From Anaerohalosphaera lusitana (GTDB lineage: Bacteria; Planctomycetota; Phycisphaerae; Sedimentisphaerales; Anaerohalosphaeraceae), in NCBI RefSeq assembly GCF_002007645.1, contig NZ_CP019791.1, positions 3,154,593 through 3,218,592 on the forward strand: a DNA stretch of 64,000 nt, in the 5' to 3' direction. The notes beneath the pieces are model-generated. The model was given only the letters and a program-made list of their open reading frames with translations. It did no database searches and had not been told where the DNA came from. Below, piece after piece: positions 25,843 to 37,706 of the stretch. Each line of letters starts with the position of its first letter. The first letter of the stretch is position 1. A program made the translations under genes and the position numbers.

Positions 25843-27741
25843 ATGACATATGACAATTTACAGGTAATTCTTCTAACCGAATGCTGTCATTTTCACAGCT
25901 CAGCCCTGGAAAAGGTACGTAATCGTTGCCTTTGGCCCGTACTCGGCCGACCAGCCCTGGAGAGAACACTCATACAGTTAAAGGATAGAGGCCTGGTCAA
26001 TGTCAGCATCTCCTTGGGAACAGGCGAATTATCAGAGGATGAAGTAAATGTACCAAAGGATATGAATGCCGCATTTTTAAAAGAATCGCTACCCGTAGGA
26101 TCGGCTGGCATCATTCGACAAGCGGCCGAAGCGACCCCTGAAGCCCAAAAATTCGTTATATTCAGCTCAAGTATTTGCAAACTCCCCGATATTGACAGCA
26201 TTCTCGAGACACACCTTAAAAAGAAGGCTGATCTGACAATCGCAATGGACGCCGTTCATGAGCAGGACCACATGGTCACCGGCAAAACCGAAGCATTTAT
26301 CTGCAACAGAAGCGTATGTCCCTATATAGATTCAGATTCCTACATCGACATAAAGGAACATTTGATCCCCTCATTGATCAAACAGGGAGGCACGGTAGCT
26401 TACAGTAGATTGGCCTTTTCTTTGCTCCACTTCACGGATTGGCGGAGCTATCTCCATGCGGTCCGACAGTTGCTCTTGGATGAAGACACCCTGCCTTCAA
26501 TAGTTCGCAATGATCGTTTCACACGGCATTCAGAGAACATTCTCATTGGCACCGATGCCCGGATAGCGAAGAACGTTCGCATATTCGGCCCCTGTCTCAT
26601 AGGACCTGATGCAAGAATCGAAAAAGACTCGACCATCATAGGCCCTTCGGTGATCGGTAAAAACACAATCGTCGAAAGCAACTGCCTGCTCAAAGATGTG
26701 ATTGTATGGGACGATGTAACAATAGATAAGAATTGCGAACTCAGCAACTGCGTAATCAGTCAGAACACACGGTTAAAAAAGAACTCATCAAGGCAGAATA
26801 GTGTAATAGCGGCGAAAGACAGAAATTTCTTGCCGAATCATTCACTAAAATTACCCGCCGCTATTCGCTCACAAAGTCAAAAGTGCATTAACAGAGGCCT
26901 TCTCACTAAAGTCTTTGCCATAACAGCAGTTTTTCTATTCACATGGTCATACTGGCCTCAGATTTCAAATCTGCTTGATATCTGGCAAAACAGCAGACTT
27001 CATGCTGCAGGTGCCCTCGTCCCGCCGCTGGCACTCTATGCTGCCTGGACAAAGAGAGAAGAACTTTCTAAGCTCAAATTAAGGCCCAGCCTCTGGGGAA
27101 TTCTGGCATTGAGCCTCGCAGAAATCACACGTCATTTCGGAACATATTTCATGTATGGATCACTGAACAGGCTCTCCATCCTGATCGCGATCACCGGACT
27201 GCTTCTGTTGTTCTTTGGAATCTCTTCCATACGCAGGACAGCCCCGCTGCTGCTCTTTCTGCTGCTCATGTTTCCCCTGCCCACCTCTTTAAGAAATTCG
27301 ATCTCAGTACCCCTGCAGGAACTGGCCATCAGTTCGGTCATGTTCGGTATGGAAATAATGGGCATAACTGTCTCACGTGACGGTGCCTACCTGGATTTTG
27401 ACTCTGCACGGATCCTCGTAAGTGAAGGATGCAACGGCTTGCGAATGATCATGGCATTCGCAATTCTAACTTGCTTTATAGCATTGATCATCGAAAGCCC
27501 GACGTGGATCAAGTCCTCACTAATACTCTCCTGCATACCTCTCAGCTTGTTGTGTAACTCTATCCGACTCGGCGCAACCGCCCGACTGAGTATGCAGATC
27601 GGCTCTAACGAAATTCAGCAAACAATACACGACATTGGAGGACTCGCCATGGTCCCCCTGGCCATGGGTTTCGTTTTGCTCGAATTACGTTTCTTTTCAA
27701 GCTTTACCAGAAATGGATCTCTCATCCTTAAACGAAAATAA
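25843..27741 (+). CDS. Exosortase fused to degenerate nucleotidyltransferase / hexapeptide module
   Basis: 632 residues in one uninterrupted frame. Residues 1-225 resemble a sugar nucleotidyltransferase (LWPVLGRPALERTLIQL), but the GxGTR-type nucleotide loop is replaced by LLTECCHFHSS, so catalysis is doubtful. Residues about 233-315 are left-handed beta-helix hexapeptides (GPCLIGPDARIEKD, SVIGKNTIVES). From about 353 there are about eight membrane spans with the exosortase signature: Cys530 in SEGCNGLR, Arg575 in CNSIRLG and His596 in HDIGG, the expected Cys-Arg-His set. Exosortases cleave and re-anchor proteins with PEP-CTERM tails at the membrane. The fusion is unusual. The candidate substrate is encoded at 36368 and EpsI at 11488. 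Confidence 0.9.
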   Translation: MTYDNLQVILLTECCHFHSSALEKVRNRCLWPVLGRPALERTLIQLKDRGLVNVSISLGTGELSEDEVNVPKDMNAAFLKESLPVGSAGIIRQAAEATPEAQKFVIFSSSICKLPDIDSILETHLKKKADLTIAMDAVHEQDHMVTGKTEAFICNRSVCPYIDSDSYIDIKEHLIPSLIKQGGTVAYSRLAFSLLHFTDWRSYLHAVRQLLLDEDTLPSIVRNDRFTRHSENILIGTDARIAKNVRIFGPCLIGPDARIEKDSTIIGPSVIGKNTIVESNCLLKDVIVWDDVTIDKNCELSNCVISQNTRLKKNSSRQNSVIAAKDRNFLPNHSLKLPAAIRSQSQKCINRGLLTKVFAITAVFLFTWSYWPQISNLLDIWQNSRLHAAGALVPPLALYAAWTKREELSKLKLRPSLWGILALSLAEITRHFGTYFMYGSLNRLSILIAITGLLLLFFGISSIRRTAPLLLFLLLMFPLPTSLRNSISVPLQELAISSVMFGMEIMGITVSRDGAYLDFDSARILVSEGCNGLRMIMAFAILTCFIALIIESPTWIKSSLILSCIPLSLLCNSIRLGATARLSMQIGSNEIQQTIHDIGGLAMVPLAMGFVLLELRFFSSFTRNGSLILKRK

Positions 27742-27753
27742 AGGAGCACGATT

Positions 27754-29973
27754 ATGAATCAGATCGATAAGTACTATGAATCATATCTAGGCTCGTACGC
27801 CCAGGAAGGCACAAAGCAAGAATCTGAAAACACCTTGACATTGTTCAAGATAATCAAGGCACTGCTGCGACGGTGGTACATCGTTCTGCTGACCGTGGTC
27901 GTCCTTTGTGCGATAGGCATCCCCGCCATCTTCTACATGTTCAAACCGTCTTACGAAACAGTCGGCGCCATCAGAGTTTCACCGATACTCCCCAATGTAC
28001 TCTTCGACGACGCCGAAACCCAGGACGTAATGCCCAACTACCAGGGCTTTATGAACACCCAGGCCGAGCTCATGTCCAGCAACGAGATCCTCAATCGCGT
28101 CGCCGAAGACATGGCCAAAAGAGGCATACGCATATGCGAACCCGATATGGACCCCGTAGCGATCCTGAAGCTCATGATCAACAAAGAAACCATCCTCATC
28201 GAGCCCGGCGAAAAAACAGAACTGATCAACATCAAAATGAAAACCAACAACACCGCATTCTCTGAAGAACTTGTCGACTCGTTCATACGCGTCTATATGA
28301 CTATGCAGGCCTATGAAGAAAATCAGGGCGAAGACAACAAACTCGCCTTGCTTGAGAACAAAAGAGCTTCAACAGCAAAACAAATGCAGCAGCAGCGAAA
28401 GATCATTCGCCAGCTCGCCGAAGAATTCGGCACAACAAGTCTCACCGGCCGACAGGAAATGATGCTTGAGCAGGTAATGAAGCTCCAGAATGAACTTACG
28501 ACCCTCGAAACCAAAAGGATTGCCCTTGAGGCCAACGTACAGATGAAAGTCAACGGTGACAAGGTCCTGCTCGCCCCCACCGACCGCATGAAGCTAAAAT
28601 ACGAATTCATAAATGCTGACTTGACCATAAAGGCCCTCACCGAAGACATGGCCAAACTGGAAAGAGATGTACTGGGCGATCAGCAAACAATGGTCTCAGG
28701 CAATCCAAGGCTCGAACAAAGAAAAGAAATACTCACAGCCTTAAAAACACGACTGGACCAGAGACGCGAGGACATAGGCAAAAAATTTGAGGAGCTCATA
28801 GAGGAACAGATAAACCGCAGCTCGGAGTTTCAGGTGGCCGAACTCAAAGCCGAACTTGCCAAAGTCCGCGAAAACGAACGGCGCATAAGAGAAAAACTAG
28901 AAGGTACCAACGCAGAATTAATCACATTAGGCAAAAGACACCTCGCGATAAAGGACCACCAGGAACAGCTCGAGCTAACCAAAGAACTTTACGACGCTAT
29001 CAATCGCAAGATCCAGAAGATCGAAATGGAAAGCCAAAGACCCGCCCGCGTCTCCGTCGCCTACTATGCATCCAGCGTCATCGCCAAAGATAAAAGACAA
29101 AAGCTGGCGATCGTTGCGGTCCTTGGTTCAATTTGCTGCGGCGGCTTTCTTGGAGTAATGATCGATCGATCAGACAAACGCATGCGTACACCCACCGACC
29201 TAAACAAATCACTAAGCACCCGCATCATCGGCACAACCGTATGCCCAACCGAGGTCAAAAGATCAGAGCTCTCGGAAAGACTCGCCGACGACTACCGCAC
29301 TATACGAGCCAACATCAGCATGCTCGAAGAAGAGAATCAACACATATTAGCAGTAACAAGCAGTCAGCCCAAGGACGGCAAGACTACCTTCTCGATCAAT
29401 TTCGCTGCAAGCCTGGCACAGAACGACCGAAAGGTCCTGCTCATTGACGGCGACCTGAGAAAACCAGACATTGCACGCATCCTGAATCTCCCTGAAGGCA
29501 CTACAGGACTTTCCGACGTCCTTGAAGGCAAACCATTTGCCAACGCTCTCTGGTACGCACCATCAGCAGGATTCGATGTCCTCGGCAATTACGACCGTTG
29601 TCTCAAGGCCTGCGACAGGCTGTCCAGACCCGAGGTCCAAAGCAACATACGAAATCTTTGCAGATACTACGATCATGTTGTAATAGACACCCCTCCTGTA
29701 CTCGCCTTCCCCGACGCCCTGCTTTGGGCTCGCATCGCCGACGCGACAATACTCGCCAGCTTCGCAGGCAAAACAGCAGCAGACGACCTCAAGGAAGCTT
29801 ACGGCAGGCTTCATGAACTCAACATCACTGTGCTGGGGACGGTCCTCAACGGTGTCCACACCGCTCACTCATACAATAAATACGGCTACAGATATTACAA
29901 GGCATCCTCATCACCCGCCGACAAAAACGGCCCTACACGAAACAGACCTCTTCTGCTCACATCAGGGAACTGA
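27754..29973 (+). CDS. Wzz/BY-kinase polysaccharide co-polymerase (tyrosine autokinase)
   Basis: 739 residues. A chain-length-determinant (Wzz) domain is held by membrane spans at about 42-65 and 450-470, with a long coiled-coil periplasmic part between them. The C-terminal cytoplasmic BY-kinase domain has Walker A SSQPKDGKTT (536-545), Walker A' LLIDGDLR (562-569) and Walker B VVIDTPP (642-648), followed by a tyrosine cluster (Tyr707, 710, 712, 714, 715) that would be autophosphorylated. Such proteins set polymer length with Wzy and Wza. AAGGAG precedes the ATG. It is encoded between the two enzymes that carry the hexapeptide module. Confidence 0.93.
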   Translation: MNQIDKYYESYLGSYAQEGTKQESENTLTLFKIIKALLRRWYIVLLTVVVLCAIGIPAIFYMFKPSYETVGAIRVSPILPNVLFDDAETQDVMPNYQGFMNTQAELMSSNEILNRVAEDMAKRGIRICEPDMDPVAILKLMINKETILIEPGEKTELINIKMKTNNTAFSEELVDSFIRVYMTMQAYEENQGEDNKLALLENKRASTAKQMQQQRKIIRQLAEEFGTTSLTGRQEMMLEQVMKLQNELTTLETKRIALEANVQMKVNGDKVLLAPTDRMKLKYEFINADLTIKALTEDMAKLERDVLGDQQTMVSGNPRLEQRKEILTALKTRLDQRREDIGKKFEELIEEQINRSSEFQVAELKAELAKVRENERRIREKLEGTNAELITLGKRHLAIKDHQEQLELTKELYDAINRKIQKIEMESQRPARVSVAYYASSVIAKDKRQKLAIVAVLGSICCGGFLGVMIDRSDKRMRTPTDLNKSLSTRIIGTTVCPTEVKRSELSERLADDYRTIRANISMLEEENQHILAVTSSQPKDGKTTFSINFAASLAQNDRKVLLIDGDLRKPDIARILNLPEGTTGLSDVLEGKPFANALWYAPSAGFDVLGNYDRCLKACDRLSRPEVQSNIRNLCRYYDHVVIDTPPVLAFPDALLWARIADATILASFAGKTAADDLKEAYGRLHELNITVLGTVLNGVHTAHSYNKYGYRYYKASSSPADKNGPTRNRPLLLTSGN

Positions 29974-31644
29974 TTGCTTATGCTAAGAAAAATCACACAA
30001 TGCACAATCCTTGAAGATCTAACCGCGGAGTCTAACCCCCCCATCGGCAACTGGCTTGCAGCGCATCAATGGCGACTGAATGCACTAATTCAGATAGTCA
30101 GGCAGAATGCCGCCTGCAAATGCAGTCACATCTTTTATCCAGCGTCATGGCGTATTTCCAGCGATGATCGAAACCTCACGCCATATGACTGCACACTACT
30201 ACTGAAAACACTCAAAAATGAAATCTCAGATCACAAAAACATCCTCCTGAATCACGCTAAGAACGTCACAAGGATCGACCCTGCAATACTGCGATCTCTG
30301 ATCGAACGCTATTCGGATATTGACGTGCTGGCCGTCAATGTCAGAAAGGACCTCACCCGCATCACCGAAAGAGCGATACTGAATGAACATGGCAATGTCT
30401 GCGGCTTCAAGAGGTTCTACAATCATGGAGCTTTACGTGAAATGCAATGCACCGATTGGCCTGATTACCTCTTGATCAACAGCAACATCCTCACTGACCT
30501 GCCCGATGACATCGATCTCATCACTGATTTCACACGGTTTTGGAAATTCATCATTGAGCACAATCACTCTCGGGTCACAGTTGGCGTTCCAGGTCAGATC
30601 GTTCCGTTACAGAATAGCGTCGAAACAGTTTTAGATATGGCTCACAGCATCATCTCGAGCAAAACAAGAACCGATCATACACCGATTGACGGTATGAAAA
30701 AAGTTCAGGATCCGTCCATCCGAATAATCGGCAACGTTCTGGCAGGCCCAAATCTCTCCTTGGGGAAAAACTGTGTACTTCTCGGCCCTTCGATTATCGG
30801 CAAGAACGTGCATATACAAGACGGATCTCTCATTGATTCCAGTGTCATCGATGACAACACCTGCGTCGAATCCGGCTCAAGGATCAGAAATACGTTCTTA
30901 ACCCACTCCGAAACCAAGTGCTCAGCCGAAAATACATCAGACTTACAGCTCAGCGAACCCATCCAAATTTCAGGTGCTCTGGGCTATCCAAATTACCCAA
31001 AACGCTGTCTGGATGCACTCGCATCGCTGGGCCTTATTCTCGTCTCGGCACCTGTCATGCTCGCTATAGCAGCCGCGATAAAGCTCGAATCGCCCGGCCC
31101 AGCAATATTCAAACATCGCAGACAGGGTCTCTCCGGCAGAGAATTTCAATGCCTGAAATTCAGAACAATGGTAACAGGCGCAGACCAAATGCAGCAGATA
31201 CTGAGATCATTGAACGAAGTTGACGGCCCTCAATTCAAAATAGAAAACGATCCGCGAGTCAGCAGGCTTGGGAGGTTTCTCAGAGCAACATACCTGGACG
31301 AACTGCCGCAATTATTTAACGTTCTGGCCGGTCATATGAGTCTCGTAGGCCCAAGACCCTCACCTGCGCGGGAGAACCTGTTTTGCCCGCACTGGCACGA
31401 TGCAAGGCTGTCCGTCAAACCCGGCATAACGGGTTTATGGCAGGTAAAACGTAATCCTGAGCGAACTCACGATTTCCAGGAATGGCTCAAATATGATGTT
31501 GAATATGTCAATTCGATCAGCTTCAAGCTGGATCTCTGGATATTCCTGCAAACAATAAAAAAACTCACATCGAAACTGGCAGAACCGCTTGCCGTTCGGA
31601 TTTTCAATTGGAAACGCCTGAATCATGTCCCGGAAAAAACGTAA
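29974..31644 (+). CDS. Priming glycosyl-1-phosphate transferase with N-terminal hexapeptide module
   Basis: About 556 residues; start either TTG 29974 (AGGGA 5 nt upstream) or ATG 29980. Residues 1-240 are unrecognised but occupy the place of a nucleotidyltransferase domain. About 248-318 are left-handed beta-helix hexapeptides (GPSIIGKNVHIQDGS). From 343 the sequence is a complete bacterial sugar transferase (PF02397, WcaJ/PglC-like): KRCLDALASLGL, a membrane hairpin, IKLESPGPAIFKHRRQG, LKFRTM, the DELPQLFNVL region and VGPRP. It would load the first sugar phosphate onto undecaprenyl phosphate. The five or so predicted N-terminal helices of WcaJ are missing and replaced by this soluble module. 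Confidence 0.87.
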   Translation: MLMLRKITQCTILEDLTAESNPPIGNWLAAHQWRLNALIQIVRQNAACKCSHIFYPASWRISSDDRNLTPYDCTLLLKTLKNEISDHKNILLNHAKNVTRIDPAILRSLIERYSDIDVLAVNVRKDLTRITERAILNEHGNVCGFKRFYNHGALREMQCTDWPDYLLINSNILTDLPDDIDLITDFTRFWKFIIEHNHSRVTVGVPGQIVPLQNSVETVLDMAHSIISSKTRTDHTPIDGMKKVQDPSIRIIGNVLAGPNLSLGKNCVLLGPSIIGKNVHIQDGSLIDSSVIDDNTCVESGSRIRNTFLTHSETKCSAENTSDLQLSEPIQISGALGYPNYPKRCLDALASLGLILVSAPVMLAIAAAIKLESPGPAIFKHRRQGLSGREFQCLKFRTMVTGADQMQQILRSLNEVDGPQFKIENDPRVSRLGRFLRATYLDELPQLFNVLAGHMSLVGPRPSPARENLFCPHWHDARLSVKPGITGLWQVKRNPERTHDFQEWLKYDVEYVNSISFKLDLWIFLQTIKKLTSKLAEPLAVRIFNWKRLNHVPEKT

Positions 31645-34600
31645 TATCATAACCGCCCTTTCGGCATTCATTCTTCTGGTCGTCGTCATTTTTGCATTGA
31701 ACGTGATCCATGACTGGCAGCAGAAACGTTTGTCCGAAAAAACCTACAGCCAGGGACTGAACGCCTACCAGCAGAACAACTGGGCCCAAGCAGCAAAACA
31801 CTTCCGTACCTATCTTTCCAAAAACGGCACCGACAACGAAATTCTGGCAAAATTCGCCCAGGCCCAGCTTAATCGCAGGCCACTAAAAAAACAGTACTTC
31901 GACAGTGCAATACGCTCCTACCGGCGGATTCTTTTGAACGACCCACAAAACCTGACCGCCGCGATGGCTCTCATTGACAGACTTATCGAGAACGATCTGC
32001 CGGCCGAAGCTGAACTCGTCGTAAACAGATTGACCGGACTCGCAAAACATCCTCAGATAAGACTCAGGCTCGCTCTTGCCAAACAAAAACAGGGTGACTT
32101 CAATTCAGCAGTCAAAATAACGAAACAATTGATCCAGTCTGACCCCAGAATACTCAAAGCGTACGAGCTCCTCATTCAAACAGCTTCTCAAAAACCGGAG
32201 ATCATGAATGAAGCCGGAATGTATTGGTGCGAGAAATGTCAGGAAGAAAATCCGCAAAACCCAATGAGCCATATTCTAATGGCCGAACAGCAGATAATGC
32301 AAGGCAATGATGAACAGGCATTGAACGATCTAAACAACGCAGCAGCATTACCAAATATGAGTCATGATGTACATCTTCGCCTTGCTGACAACTATAAAAA
32401 TCTGAACAAGACAGACCTTTCCCTCCAGCATCTCGAACATGCCCGCAAGATCGAAGCTAACAGTTTCAAACTATGGAAAGCCTACGCCGAACATGCGATT
32501 ACATCAAGCGACACCTCCAAAATGACATACGTTGCGCAGCAGGCCCTGAAAGACCTTGATCCCGATGATTGGGACTTTACACCCATAGCCGCAGAATTGC
32601 TCATTCACTCCGATGAGCTGAATCAAGCAGAACAAATGATTCAGCAATACCGGGAAAACGGAGGTTTACGAACTACAGCATGTTTCCTCGAAGGCTTGAT
32701 CTTTGTCCGAAGAAATGAAAATTCCAGGGCCATAGATTCATGGGAAAGGGCTCTTCAACTCGGCGACCCCACACTGAGAACAAGACTTGAACTTGCCGCC
32801 CTGTTCTTGCAGCAGGGATTGCCTTACCGGGCCCAGAGGGTACTTACAGACTGTGATAACTATGAGAACCGAATAGAGGTCCTGCTTTTAAGGGCCCAAA
32901 CAGCCAGACTTTTGAAAAAAGCCCCCGAAGCGATCGAATACTATCAGAAAGCTTTGCAGCTTTATCCCGAAAATGCGGATATCATGAGCCGCTATTTTGA
33001 CTATGCGCTGACAGTTTTCGAAGATCCAGATATTCCTATCAGCAAAGGAGAACTCGGTTCTGTTCTGGAACGGCTCTTGAACACGGATATCCCCAAGCCA
33101 AAGAAGCGTCTCCTTTCAATGAGATTCTATCTCGCAGCCGATCAACTGAACAACTGTGAAAAAGAACTGAATCAGCTCAAACAAGAAGGATCGCTGACTT
33201 CAGAACATCTGCTGATTCAAGCGGATCTCGAATACAAAAAATCTGATCTACGCAAGGCACTTGACATTCTCGAAACGATCCAGCCGGACGACCCATACTA
33301 CATCCAGGCCTCACTCAAGGGTGCCCGGATCTGTACAAAAAGCGGAAATCCGGAACTGTCAGAAAGCTTCCTGCAACGTAAACTTGAACATGCCGCATCG
33401 AAAGAGGCAAGAAATATACTCCTGGTAAGCTTGCTCGACATTACCAATGACCGTACCGACGACGCCGACTTCAGCAAGCTTAAAACGCTGCATGAGCGAT
33501 TCGGCCCATCGATAGCTTTAAATCGAAGATTACTTCATTGCGATCAAACATATGATGAACCCCTGCTAGTTGAAAGCCTGATCGATGAACTGAGAAACAT
33601 CGAAGGCGAAAACGGCTGGCGATGGAGATATGAAACAGTAAGGCACTGGCTGAACTTGCCGGACTTCACATCGCGTTACACTGAAGCAGTGCAACTGACT
33701 GAAGAAATACAACGGATGTATCCCGAACTGCAAACATCACATATACTTATGGCCAGAACCCATGAAACAGCAAGAAGAACCAACCTGGCCCTTAAGTCAT
33801 ACCGCCAGGCATTGCAGCAGAACCCATCAGATATCGACTTAGCACTCGAACTCATAAAGGTCCTCAAACGAGCTGACAAGCATAAAGAGGCAGAAACTCT
33901 GAGCCGAACATACATCGATCGGTTCCCCTACAACCCCCTGCTGGCCTCATTGTCTGCAGACTACTACATAAGCCACGAACAACTTCAAAAAGCCGAAATG
34001 GTGCTCTCTAAAGTAATTGAAAAAGAACCTGACAACATCACCATACTGCTGCGGCTAATAGAAACTCAGATCAGCATGAAGGATTTCGACTCCGCGGAAA
34101 GAACCCTCAGCGACCTCCTTAAACAACTCCCAGCAGCACAAAGCATAGAATCGTGTACCGCAGCCGTCAATTTTAGCCTTGCAAAAGGCGACACAAGAAC
34201 GGCTGTCAAATACTGTAACGACCTTCTCAAGAACCGTGAATCCTCAAGGCCATATCTGCTTCGAGCCAGAATATATTCATTGACTGGAAAAACTACATTG
34301 GCAATGGATGATCTTCTTCGAGCGGTTCAGGTCGAGCCGACTGATTCAGGGGCCTGGCTGGAACTCGCAGTATTTTATCATTCGATCGGTGACATAAAAC
34401 AAAGCATTGAAGCGATCGGAAAATGTCTTCAGATCGACCCATACGATCCGACGATCCGAAAACATGCTAGCCGCATCATGCTCGAAAGCAATGACACAGC
34501 CGTCCGAAAACGCGGACTGGAAATACTCAAAAAGGAACGCTCAAAAAACAAAGAAGACACATCGCTGGCCCTTCTCGAAGCACAGAGCCTATATAGGATG

Positions 34601-35800
34601 AGGAACAGAACCGACCGACTCAAAGCAGAAGAGATCTTGCGTCTGCTCATCAAGAAAAATCCCCTGGACAGTAACTTATGGCTCACCTGGGTCCATGAAC
34701 TTAAACGGTTAAACGAGACAGAAAAAGCAAGCCAGGTTCTTGAACAGGGACTTATCTATTTACCGAATAACCCTCTGCTTCTTTCACAGATCGAAAATTT
34801 GGGGCGCGAGGATATGGATCACGACTCAGTAAAAAGGCTTCAAGAAGTGGTTCGCAGCAGACCCTCGGATTCTCAGGCCGCGATAGCCCTGGCCAGAAAA
34901 CTGATAGATTCACAAAAACCTGACGAAGCTTCAGAGCTGCTCGAAAAACAGCTCGCGGTTTGTCAACCACAGGCCAGACCGCGTCTCGAAACTCTCCATG
35001 CGGTTGCTCAGTATCATGGCGGACACATAGATAAATCTGAAAAAGAATTCAACGAACTCCTGAAAAAGTATCCTGGCAACCCCCTAATACTTGCCGAGCG
35101 GTTCAGGGTCCTCTTTCAGCAAGGCCGGCAAGCGGAAATCGAAGAACTAGCAAAGGCAGAGATTCAGAAGGACCCCAGACAAAAGCCTCTTTTCATAGCG
35201 GTCATCAGGCAGATGGCAAATTATGAAGACACCAAGTCCGTCACCCTCGCAACCTCAATTGCAGAAGCGGTCCACACTGTTTTTGAAAACGATGCAACGA
35301 TCATGAGCATCCTGGGCGCTCTGTATCGCAAACGACAGAAGGATCAGGATTCCATAAGGATGTACACAAAGATAGTCTCGCAATACCCGGAACACGTTGA
35401 GGCCATCAATAACCTGGCATGGCTGCGATCGGAAGTGGACCGCAAATACAACGAGGCCTTCGACCTCACCCAGCAAGGCCTTGACACAGCGGACTCATAT
35501 CCCAACCTCATCGATACACGAGGCGTAATCAATTATCGCATGGAGAACTACAAAGCCGCTCGTTCGGATTTCATTAGAGCCTTGGAAACAGCCGAAGTAG
35601 GCGGCCCGTTATATGTCAACAGCACTTTCCATCTGGGCCGCACCCTCGCAGCAATGAACGAAAACAAACAGGCACTCCAAAAACTAAAAGAGGCCCTTGA
35701 GTTCAATGAATACGCAAAAGTCTTATCGAATCAGAATATAGAGGAAGCTAACCGCCTTATTAACCTTTTGATCGGAACGGTGGAACAAAATGAGCACTAA
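31625..35800 (+). CDS. Giant TPR protein of the exosortase/EPS cluster
   Basis: 1391 residues with one N-terminal membrane anchor (about residues 8-28, IITALSAFILLVVVIFALNV) and then TPR repeats nearly to the C-terminus. Large TPR proteins (PrsT-like) are regular members of exosortase/PEP-CTERM EPS loci and probably scaffold the periplasmic assembly or export machinery. The start overlaps the previous gene by 20 bp and the end overlaps the LuxR gene by 11 bp, so expression is coupled. The repeats are divergent, suggesting age rather than recent expansion. Confidence 0.85.
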   Translation: MSRKKRNIITALSAFILLVVVIFALNVIHDWQQKRLSEKTYSQGLNAYQQNNWAQAAKHFRTYLSKNGTDNEILAKFAQAQLNRRPLKKQYFDSAIRSYRRILLNDPQNLTAAMALIDRLIENDLPAEAELVVNRLTGLAKHPQIRLRLALAKQKQGDFNSAVKITKQLIQSDPRILKAYELLIQTASQKPEIMNEAGMYWCEKCQEENPQNPMSHILMAEQQIMQGNDEQALNDLNNAAALPNMSHDVHLRLADNYKNLNKTDLSLQHLEHARKIEANSFKLWKAYAEHAITSSDTSKMTYVAQQALKDLDPDDWDFTPIAAELLIHSDELNQAEQMIQQYRENGGLRTTACFLEGLIFVRRNENSRAIDSWERALQLGDPTLRTRLELAALFLQQGLPYRAQRVLTDCDNYENRIEVLLLRAQTARLLKKAPEAIEYYQKALQLYPENADIMSRYFDYALTVFEDPDIPISKGELGSVLERLLNTDIPKPKKRLLSMRFYLAADQLNNCEKELNQLKQEGSLTSEHLLIQADLEYKKSDLRKALDILETIQPDDPYYIQASLKGARICTKSGNPELSESFLQRKLEHAASKEARNILLVSLLDITNDRTDDADFSKLKTLHERFGPSIALNRRLLHCDQTYDEPLLVESLIDELRNIEGENGWRWRYETVRHWLNLPDFTSRYTEAVQLTEEIQRMYPELQTSHILMARTHETARRTNLALKSYRQALQQNPSDIDLALELIKVLKRADKHKEAETLSRTYIDRFPYNPLLASLSADYYISHEQLQKAEMVLSKVIEKEPDNITILLRLIETQISMKDFDSAERTLSDLLKQLPAAQSIESCTAAVNFSLAKGDTRTAVKYCNDLLKNRESSRPYLLRARIYSLTGKTTLAMDDLLRAVQVEPTDSGAWLELAVFYHSIGDIKQSIEAIGKCLQIDPYDPTIRKHASRIMLESNDTAVRKRGLEILKKERSKNKEDTSLALLEAQSLYRMRNRTDRLKAEEILRLLIKKNPLDSNLWLTWVHELKRLNETEKASQVLEQGLIYLPNNPLLLSQIENLGREDMDHDSVKRLQEVVRSRPSDSQAAIALARKLIDSQKPDEASELLEKQLAVCQPQARPRLETLHAVAQYHGGHIDKSEKEFNELLKKYPGNPLILAERFRVLFQQGRQAEIEELAKAEIQKDPRQKPLFIAVIRQMANYEDTKSVTLATSIAEAVHTVFENDATIMSILGALYRKRQKDQDSIRMYTKIVSQYPEHVEAINNLAWLRSEVDRKYNEAFDLTQQGLDTADSYPNLIDTRGVINYRMENYKAARSDFIRALETAEVGGPLYVNSTFHLGRTLAAMNENKQALQKLKEALEFNEYAKVLSNQNIEEANRLINLLIGTVEQNEH

Positions 35801-36164: not shown

Positions 36165-36367
36165 GCTCAAACCGGCCTGATATACCGACAATAGCTTTGC
36201 ATTAGCGGAAAGTGTATACGATGCAATACAAAATAACAGCACTAATACAGATTCGGCATGGCTCACAATACATACATGTCAACACCCTTCCAAGAGCACC
36301 CCCATTTGCCGGAAACACAGCGACCTGTGAACAGTCGCGTTAATAAGTAATATTGAGGAGACTCACC

Positions 36368-36832
36368 ATGAATTTAAAACTAATGACAACTATAATCGTT
36401 CTAGCTTTTGCGGCGACTGCGACCGCAAGTTTTGACTATGCAGCTCTAGATGAAAGCCAGGCTTCTGCGACCGGCTGGCAGTTGGAAGCAACTGGTGTGG
36501 AACCAACACTTCCTGCATCAGCTAAAAAAACTGACAAGTTCGTCGTAAGATCCGGCAAATGGGGCACAGACGATGAAGATGTTGATCCCGAAGACGTACT
36601 CGCCGTAAAGCCCGGCAACGGAAATGCTAATGGAATCGTAAAGAACGTGATTCCTAAAAATCTGGTGCCCGGCAACGGCAATTGGGAAGATGTCTCATCC
36701 GGTGTCGTCCAGACCCCGACAAATGGCGACGCGACAGACGGACCCTCTGCAACTCCTCTGCCCAGCTCAATGACCCTGGGCTTGATAGGCGTGAGCATGG
36801 TTGGCCTGTTGAGAAAACGCCATGCAGCTTGA
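36368..36832 (+). CDS. Small secreted protein with PEP-CTERM-like sorting tail
   Basis: 154 residues from the ATG at 36368, chosen over an in-frame TTG at 36353 because GAGGAG lies about 8 nt before it. An N-terminal signal peptide (MNLKLMTTIIVLAFAATATA) is followed by an acidic, Gly/Asn-rich region without cysteine. The C-terminus is a tripartite sorting signal: PLPSS, a hydrophobic stretch (MTLGLIGVSMVGLL) and basic RKRH. PEP-CTERM proteins normally have a Pro-Glu-Pro here; this copy has Pro-Leu-Pro. It is the only PEP-CTERM-like protein I find in the window and probably the local exosortase substrate. A separate promoter is likely in the 188-bp gap upstream. Confidence 0.78.
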   Translation: MNLKLMTTIIVLAFAATATASFDYAALDESQASATGWQLEATGVEPTLPASAKKTDKFVVRSGKWGTDDEDVDPEDVLAVKPGNGNANGIVKNVIPKNLVPGNGNWEDVSSGVVQTPTNGDATDGPSATPLPSSMTLGLIGVSMVGLLRKRHAA

Positions 36833-36968: not shown

Positions 36969-37706
36969 ATGAAATTTCAAGAAATGATCATCTCGGTGAT
37001 CCTGGTTCCATGTTTAATACTGACAACTGGCTGCTTTTCTTCAAACCCGGAAGACATAAACGCTTTTCTAATGCCCGACCAGGCGGAGATCGCGGCCCAG
37101 AACTACCTTCTTCGGCCTCCAGACAGAATCGTGATTCATTGCACCAGCATCCCCGAACTGCACGAACAGGAACAGGCTATCAGACCGGACGGCAAGATCG
37201 CTTTCCAGGATATCGGAGAACTGAAAGTCGCAGGTAAAACACCTAATGAAGTTTCAGGAATCCTGAAAGACAGACTCTCAAAGCTCTACAAGCTTACTGG
37301 CGATATACCCGTCGATGTCAGAGTAGCAGAATACAGAAGCGCCGCATACTATGTCTTCGGCGAAGTCAACTTCCCCGGCGCTAAACCATTCACCGGAAGA
37401 GATACGGTCCTCAGCGCGATCAGCAAAAGCCGGCCTACCGGTTCCTCCTGGTCCGAAAGGGTACAGATCATCAGACCCTCCAGCGATCCAGAAGAAAGGC
37501 CTAAGATATTCGAAGTAAATCTCAACCGTATGCTCGCACACGGTGACACAAGCAAGAATGTATTGCTCCAGGAAGGCGACATGATTTACGTACCGCCAAC
37601 AATACTGGCAGCAAGTGCGGAAGTGATCGAAGAAATTGTAAGGCCCGTCGGAAGAGCCTTCGCACCAGTCAACATAACCCAGACAGGCGGCGACGGGGGT
37701 TTCTAA
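36969..37706 (+). CDS. Wza-type polysaccharide export lipoprotein
   Basis: 245 residues. A lipoprotein signal ends in LTTGC (Cys22). A polysaccharide export (Poly_export, PF02563) domain follows (YLLRPPDRIVIHC, IRPDGKIAFQDIGELKVAGKT), then a SLBB-type domain (YYVFGEVNFPGAKPFTG). OPX proteins form the outer-membrane channel or periplasmic conduit for EPS and pair with the Wzz/BY-kinase at 27754. It is shorter than Wza (about 380 residues) and has no clear C-terminal helix barrel. GGGGGAAAAC precedes the ATG. Confidence 0.9.
   Translation: MKFQEMIISVILVPCLILTTGCFSSNPEDINAFLMPDQAEIAAQNYLLRPPDRIVIHCTSIPELHEQEQAIRPDGKIAFQDIGELKVAGKTPNEVSGILKDRLSKLYKLTGDIPVDVRVAEYRSAAYYVFGEVNFPGAKPFTGRDTVLSAISKSRPTGSSWSERVQIIRPSSDPEERPKIFEVNLNRMLAHGDTSKNVLLQEGDMIYVPPTILAASAEVIEEIVRPVGRAFAPVNITQTGGDGGF

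Follow-up and report, generated by a model that had tools for sequence, protein, structure and literature searches.

An exosortase and a priming phosphoglycosyl transferase (PGT), encoded on either side of a BY-kinase gene in Anaerohalosphaera lusitana, carry related front ends, both predicted to adopt the complete two-domain fold of sugar-nucleotide pyrophosphorylases, with the exosortase-side module having lost the catalytic residues of these enzymes. We give a rough probability of 0.5 to the reading that the two pseudo-pyrophosphorylases pair, hold the PGT and the exosortase near the BY-kinase, and tune priming.

An exosortase and a priming transferase flank a BY-kinase gene

The window is the whole stretch of DNA that was analysed, 64,000 nucleotides of contig NZ_CP019791.1, from a host genome of 4.25 Mb in a single contig; coordinates below count from its first nucleotide. 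The locus encodes PssD/PssE-like glycosyltransferases, an exosortase, a Wzz/BY-kinase, a priming transferase, a PrsT-like TPR protein, a PEP-CTERM-like small protein and an export lipoprotein. The genes of the exosortase and of the priming transferase flank the BY-kinase gene (27754-29973), as an earlier note on this DNA had stated. The features used here are the following.

25843..27741, + strand: 632-residue exosortase (XRT) fused to an N-terminal module (open reading frame and profile matches)
25843..26532, + strand: exosortase residues 1-230, a pseudo-nucleotidyltransferase domain that has lost its catalytic residues (NCBIfam, model, motifs)
26536..26814, + strand: exosortase residues 232-324, LbH_EIF2B beta helix (Pfam, model)
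26935..27690, + strand: EpsH domain of the exosortase, with Cys-Arg-His in EGCNG, NSIR and IHDIGG (Pfam and motifs)
27754..29973, + strand: Wzz-type chain-length protein with a BY (tyrosine auto-) kinase domain, between exosortase and PGT (profile matches)
29980..31644, + strand: 554-residue priming enzyme, a monotopic phosphoglycosyl transferase (PGT) fused to an N-terminal module (open reading frame and profile matches)
29980..30699, + strand: PGT residues 1-240, divergent pyrophosphorylase-like (Rossmann/NTP-transferase) front (AlphaFold model, PDB matches, front-profile match)
30712..30909, + strand: PGT residues 245-310, left-handed beta helix of hexapeptides (BLASTP, Pfam, model)
31000..31566, + strand: PGT catalytic domain (Bac_transf), with the Asp-Glu dyad in LDELPQ (Pfam and motif)
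31625..35800, + strand: neighbouring TPR protein, PrsT-like (PEP_TPR_lipo, E 2.2e-67, under the curated cut-off)
36353..36832, + strand: small protein whose C terminus forms a PEP-CTERM-like tail (36749-36820; 19.2 bits, cut-off 20.7), a candidate exosortase substrate
36969..37706, + strand: polysaccharide export lipoprotein, Poly_export/SLBB (profile matches)

The exosortase is identified by its EpsH domain (E 1.3e-46) together with the Cys, Arg and His that we take to act in its active site. The Cys pattern is strict in 41 of 46 exosortases and reads ACNG in four more, L091 being without such a string, and the Arg and His patterns are found in all 46; judged by these motifs, the active site looks intact. 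The open reading frame of the priming enzyme (29974-31644, + strand) opens at a TTG at 29974 and has its first ATG at 29980, from which the protein probably counts 554 residues. Its residues 341-529 match Pfam Bac_transf (E 3.7e-61) and contain an Asp-Glu dyad, presumably the PGT active site, which places the protein among the monotopic phosphoglycosyl transferases. DE-[ILVM]-PQ was present in each of the 41 order-level PGT sequences read, and this active site looks intact as well. We ruled out a large PGT of the WbaP/WcaJ type, given the lack of four N-terminal transmembrane helices and of a PF13727 match. No hydrophobic stretch precedes residue 343, the 19-residue Kyte-Doolittle maximum over residues 1-330 being 0.99, and this hydropathy confirms the earlier claim that the usual N-terminal helices are absent from the enzyme.

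Both front ends are predicted to adopt a pyrophosphorylase fold

The hexapeptides reported earlier on both proteins are real: the PGT matches Hexapep (E 1.7e-6) and LbH_EIF2B (E 2.2e-6), and the exosortase matches LbH_EIF2B (E 4.8e-16). The 240 PGT residues ahead of them, described in the earlier note as unrecognised, indeed match no Pfam or NCBIfam family, but they are predicted to form a divergent nucleotidyltransferase-like domain, as judged from PDB structure matches and front profiles. Unlike that of the PGT, the exosortase front is recognisable by sequence, with an NCBIfam mannose-1-phosphate guanylyltransferase match over residues 29-324 (E 2.1e-20). Pfam NTP_transferase (PF00483) matches 25 of 28 order-level exosortase modules, the window's own not being among them, and 3/3 of the class members of this kind that were tested; it matches none of 35 order-level PGT modules and none of seven class PGT fronts.

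Models of the modules were built from the window proteins and named-locus sequences only. The exosortase module (residues 1-330) gave a model of pLDDT 88 and pTM 0.87, with a Foldseek E of 3e-16 and, in VIA-align, a best match to eIF2B-epsilon (9hve_I) over 325 aligned residues (Z 31.0, rmsd 2.8). The AlphaFold model of the PGT module (residues 1-320) is of only fair quality (pLDDT 80, pTM 0.67), with a Foldseek E of 1.4e-10, a TM-score of about 0.5 and a best VIA-align match to the GDP-mannose pyrophosphorylase 7x8j_B over 277 aligned residues (Z 16.8, rmsd 4.9). Both predicted models display a Rossmann-like NTP-transferase domain followed by a left-handed beta helix, suggesting that each front end comprises the complete pyrophosphorylase fold. 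The two were compared by the order of their elements and by shared structure matches. Both match the same solved proteins over their full length, namely tlr0611, GMPPA/GMPPB, VTC1, eIF2B and AGPase, and by our reading the order of secondary structure corresponds between them, apart from a hairpin of the PGT and some additional short elements.

The two front ends are related beyond the beta helix

Direct BLASTP of the PGT against the exosortase aligned the beta helix only (residues 229-309 with 227-307, E 2e-8), and whole-module profiles at the order level, which gave a probability of 99.3% (E 4.9e-20), were mostly carried by the helix. With the fronts alone, order-only profiles gave no signal (1.2%, score 19.6, with 20 column shuffles reaching 22.7). 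Class-wide profiles of the fronts with the helix removed (70 PGT against 93 exosortase-side sequences) aligned in hhalign at 94.9-95.3% with E 2-4e-8 and a score of 58.8; the alignment was collinear over 191-214 columns, and in the controls the reversed profile scored 14.2 and 50 column shuffles reached at most 22.1. The likeness of the exosortase and priming-enzyme front ends that the earlier note proposed thus holds, from front profiles and shared structure matches, as a full-length kinship, and the comparison of alignments and predicted structures that it called for shows that this kinship extends beyond generic hexapeptides, contrary to the outcome that the note had named as its refutation.

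That the likeness is due to chance or convergence, with generic hexapeptides set on two unrelated fronts, is in our view barely credible. The failure of narrow front profiles to match is what this account would expect, but the wide profiles are collinear and both models match the same solved structures full-length, so that it is disfavoured.

The exosortase-side module has nearly always lost its catalytic residues

We denote by M the first module, of the exosortase-side kind, whether free or fused. M sequences were aligned to solved pyrophosphorylases in two alignments of 55 and 51 rows, with 11 sequences in common, and were read for the GxGTR G-loop, the Lys of the P-K motif and two metal-binding Asp, which we take to be the catalytic residues of pyrophosphorylases. 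The Lys and both Asp are all absent from 52 of 55 M rows in one alignment and 48 of 51 in the other, and a GxGTR-like string occurs in one row and two rows, respectively. These sequence patterns indicate that M is catalytically degenerate, and with the G-loop, the Lys and both Asp missing we rejected M as an active pyrophosphorylase. A G-x-A-G loop, presumably the nucleotide-contact loop in relatives, is present in 55/55 and 49/51 rows. The PGT front is too divergent for pyrophosphorylase motifs to be placed.

As a side observation, the two modules display complementary wear: a beta hairpin is kept in the PGT module (residues 129-146) and missing from M (exosortase residues 84-92), whereas M retains the G-x-A-G loop, which is invisible in the PGT module.

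The arrangement is conserved within the order

Most of the named relatives in which the exosortase module was found are Planctomycetota MAGs from Phycisphaerae/Sedimentisphaerales; one carries the label Pelotomaculum. In a single-sequence search of 298 class genomes, the PGT front was found in 33 genomes of the window's own order, its own family included and one short match with an internal stop excluded; any match at E<=1e-3 occurred in 60 of the 298, most of those beyond the 33 through the helix only. Among 52 named loci found with the exosortase module, 35 display the exosortase with its module, the BY-kinase and the PGT with its module, in that order. Of the remaining 17, six are without BY-kinase and PGT and four without PGT, and in most the contig ends. 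Among these, the PGT lies about 3.5 kb away (L104) or on another contig (L085 and L093), and L101 (CP070675.1), a complete chromosome, encodes a module-bearing exosortase, no PGT module being found genome-wide. L118 ends at a contig end inside the module, and L103 and L121 contain no classified gene, their contigs ending in the module gene. In L096, L105 and L111, a stand-alone module is followed by the BY-kinase and the PGT, and in L126 the module likewise stands alone, with the exosortase encoded separately; all four genomes encode an exosortase, elsewhere or next door. This conserved arrangement around the BY-kinase suits a shared regulatory or scaffold role of the related front ends, for which the earlier note had suggested a regulator-binding or scaffold function.

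One locus (L078:8-4154, also G247:C211, which may be the same genome) encodes module, exosortase and Wzz/BY-kinase as a triple fusion, in a single open reading frame of some 1382 aa, with the contig ending in the kinase.

Outside the order, the module is mostly free of the exosortase

We examined 40 class stretches chosen, not at random, among the M matches listed. Outside the order, the typical arrangement is a stand-alone M gene, followed by a BY-kinase gene and a PGT gene with the second module. A PGT is present in 37 of the 40 stretches, 31 with a helix-bearing module (L167 and L171 counted among them) and six with the front but no LbH; a BY-kinase is present in 29, and M (or M-exosortase), BY-kinase and PGT follow in that order in 27. 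The six PGT fronts without a beta helix (L163, L164, L165, L168, L169, L170), whose partner M retains its own, still match order-level PGT fronts (91%, E 1.1e-6). In three stretches without a separate M, the PGT itself carries an M-type module (L167:2583-4679, L171:8240-9979, L179:9589-11472).

Fusions of M to an exosortase occur in four of the 40 stretches (L163, L164, L169, L170) and look independent; three more were found in another family elsewhere in the phylum (L175-L177). In a quick tree of M, with a long window branch (2.3) and a count that is indicative, the exosortase-fused label needs at least six changes, suggesting that the fusion arose or was undone repeatedly. In a phylum-wide sample, M was detected at E<=1e-20 in 12 of 294 genomes. 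Because M is free in most class relatives and four order loci have the exosortase apart, the attachment of the exosortase looks secondary. From gene content, the steadiest association appears to be that of M with a module-bearing PGT in an operon with a BY-kinase, which the exosortase joins by fusion.

A possible paired regulator of priming

In the reading that we favour, M, fused here to the exosortase, and the PGT module would pair as a heterodimer, in the manner of GMPPA/GMPPB or eIF2B gamma/epsilon, and would keep the PGT and, here, the exosortase together next to the BY-kinase, at the cytoplasmic side of the membrane. The pair may sense a nucleotide, a nucleotide sugar or the state of the kinase, and could thereby tune the commitment of undecaprenyl phosphate to the polymer, that is, priming; through its fusion to M, the exosortase would place protein sorting at the priming site. 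The mixed trimers for which the earlier note proposed a test are not borne out by the nearest structures, which are not trimeric acyltransferases: the subunits of GMPPA/GMPPB, eIF2B gamma/epsilon and AGPase associate in dimers or in bigger assemblies of even number, and by this analogy heterodimers would be the better fit. Pairing from helix to helix cannot always hold, because six loci have helix-less PGT fronts while M keeps its helix.

The modules may instead act independently, each as an allosteric sensor for the enzyme that carries it, in the form of a homodimer or a cis domain; exosortase and PGT would then make no contact, and the likeness would reflect ancestry and operon co-residence. 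The M-exosortase without a PGT module in the L101 genome and the PGTs that carry an M-type module in stretches lacking a separate M (L167, L171, L179), which count against pairing, agree with this account, as does the precedent of WbaP, whose regulatory domain acts in cis (extract of PMC10942596). However, M and PGT co-occur in 37/40 M loci, the six helix-less PGTs also have a related front, and a partner in trans is the best explanation for a free M that has no enzyme attached; we consider independent sensing possible but doubtful. Were the modules a scaffold only, tethering exosortase, BY-kinase and PGT without sensing a ligand, the recurrent attachment of M to one enzyme or another (exosortase or PGT) and the joining of module, exosortase and BY-kinase in one open reading frame (L078) would follow naturally. 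Retention in nearly all M of the G-x-A-G loop, which we take to contact nucleotide, goes beyond the needs of a spacer and makes a pure scaffold unlikely.

It is highly improbable that the modules still make or channel a nucleotide sugar for the PGT, as a bifunctional enzyme would. Their fold is that of sugar-nucleotide pyrophosphorylases, and PGT fusions to functional domains are known (PMC10942596, in extract), but M is without the catalytic Lys, both metal Asp and the G-loop, and the PGT front has no NTP_transferase match in 35/35 order-level members.

Comparison with known systems

The favoured pairing of M with the PGT module has a close parallel in GMPPA, which, according to the extract of PMC11228364, is a non-catalytic GDP-mannose sensor controlling GMPPB; that pair shares with ours the fold of both modules and offers a catalytically dead partner and nucleotide-sugar sensing. 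Here, by contrast, M is degenerate, its partner is too divergent for motifs, and the two are attached to an exosortase and a PGT. The gamma and epsilon subunits of eIF2B are pseudo-pyrophosphorylases serving as regulatory subunits, and the exosortase module is structurally closest to eIF2B-epsilon (Z 31.0); eIF2B is a eukaryotic translation factor, however, and the planctomycete modules have no catalytic GEF part.

Among PGTs, the cytoplasmic domain of WbaP binds uridine nucleotides and UMP inhibits the enzyme, and its front end recurs on PglF, a dehydratase of unrelated function, which gives a precedent for the sharing of one sensor by two pathway enzymes (extract of PMC10942596). Our PGT shares with WbaP and the Bi-PGTs an accessory cytoplasmic domain ahead of the PGT core (same extract), but it has no four-helix bundle, a pyrophosphorylase-like domain replaces PF13727, and a sister module sits on the exosortase. 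The BY-kinase adjoining this PGT recalls CapB1, which phosphorylates the PGT CapM (extract of PMC12802240).

Exosortases are tied to exopolysaccharide genes by genome association, with no physical link known in the extract of PMC1569441. The EpsH/PEP-CTERM systems described there share with the present locus the exosortase domain and an operon with exopolysaccharide genes, and differ in that the exosortase here has an extra cytoplasmic module of about 360 residues. Our searches of the open-licence PMC literature turned up neither an exosortase with a front of the pyrophosphorylase kind nor the paired operon; the domain types are known, and it is their pairing on exosortase and PGT that was not found described there. 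The related pseudoenzyme module on both enzymes is a concrete candidate for a physical link from sorting to exopolysaccharide priming. If true, it would join the WbaP/PglF domain as another way of exerting feedback control over undecaprenyl-phosphate commitment. The wider proposal of a bacterial counterpart, in planctomycetes, of the GMPPA/GMPPB-eIF2B principle, in which a dead pair assembled around the BY-kinase would read the nucleotide-sugar state of the cell, control on that basis the entry into exopolysaccharide synthesis at its first membrane step and, through fusion, couple PEP-CTERM sorting to this step, is put forward tentatively, as something we think rather less than probable. Genome-wide, 47 PEP-CTERM matches were detected, the one in the locus falling just below the cut-off and 44 lying above it.
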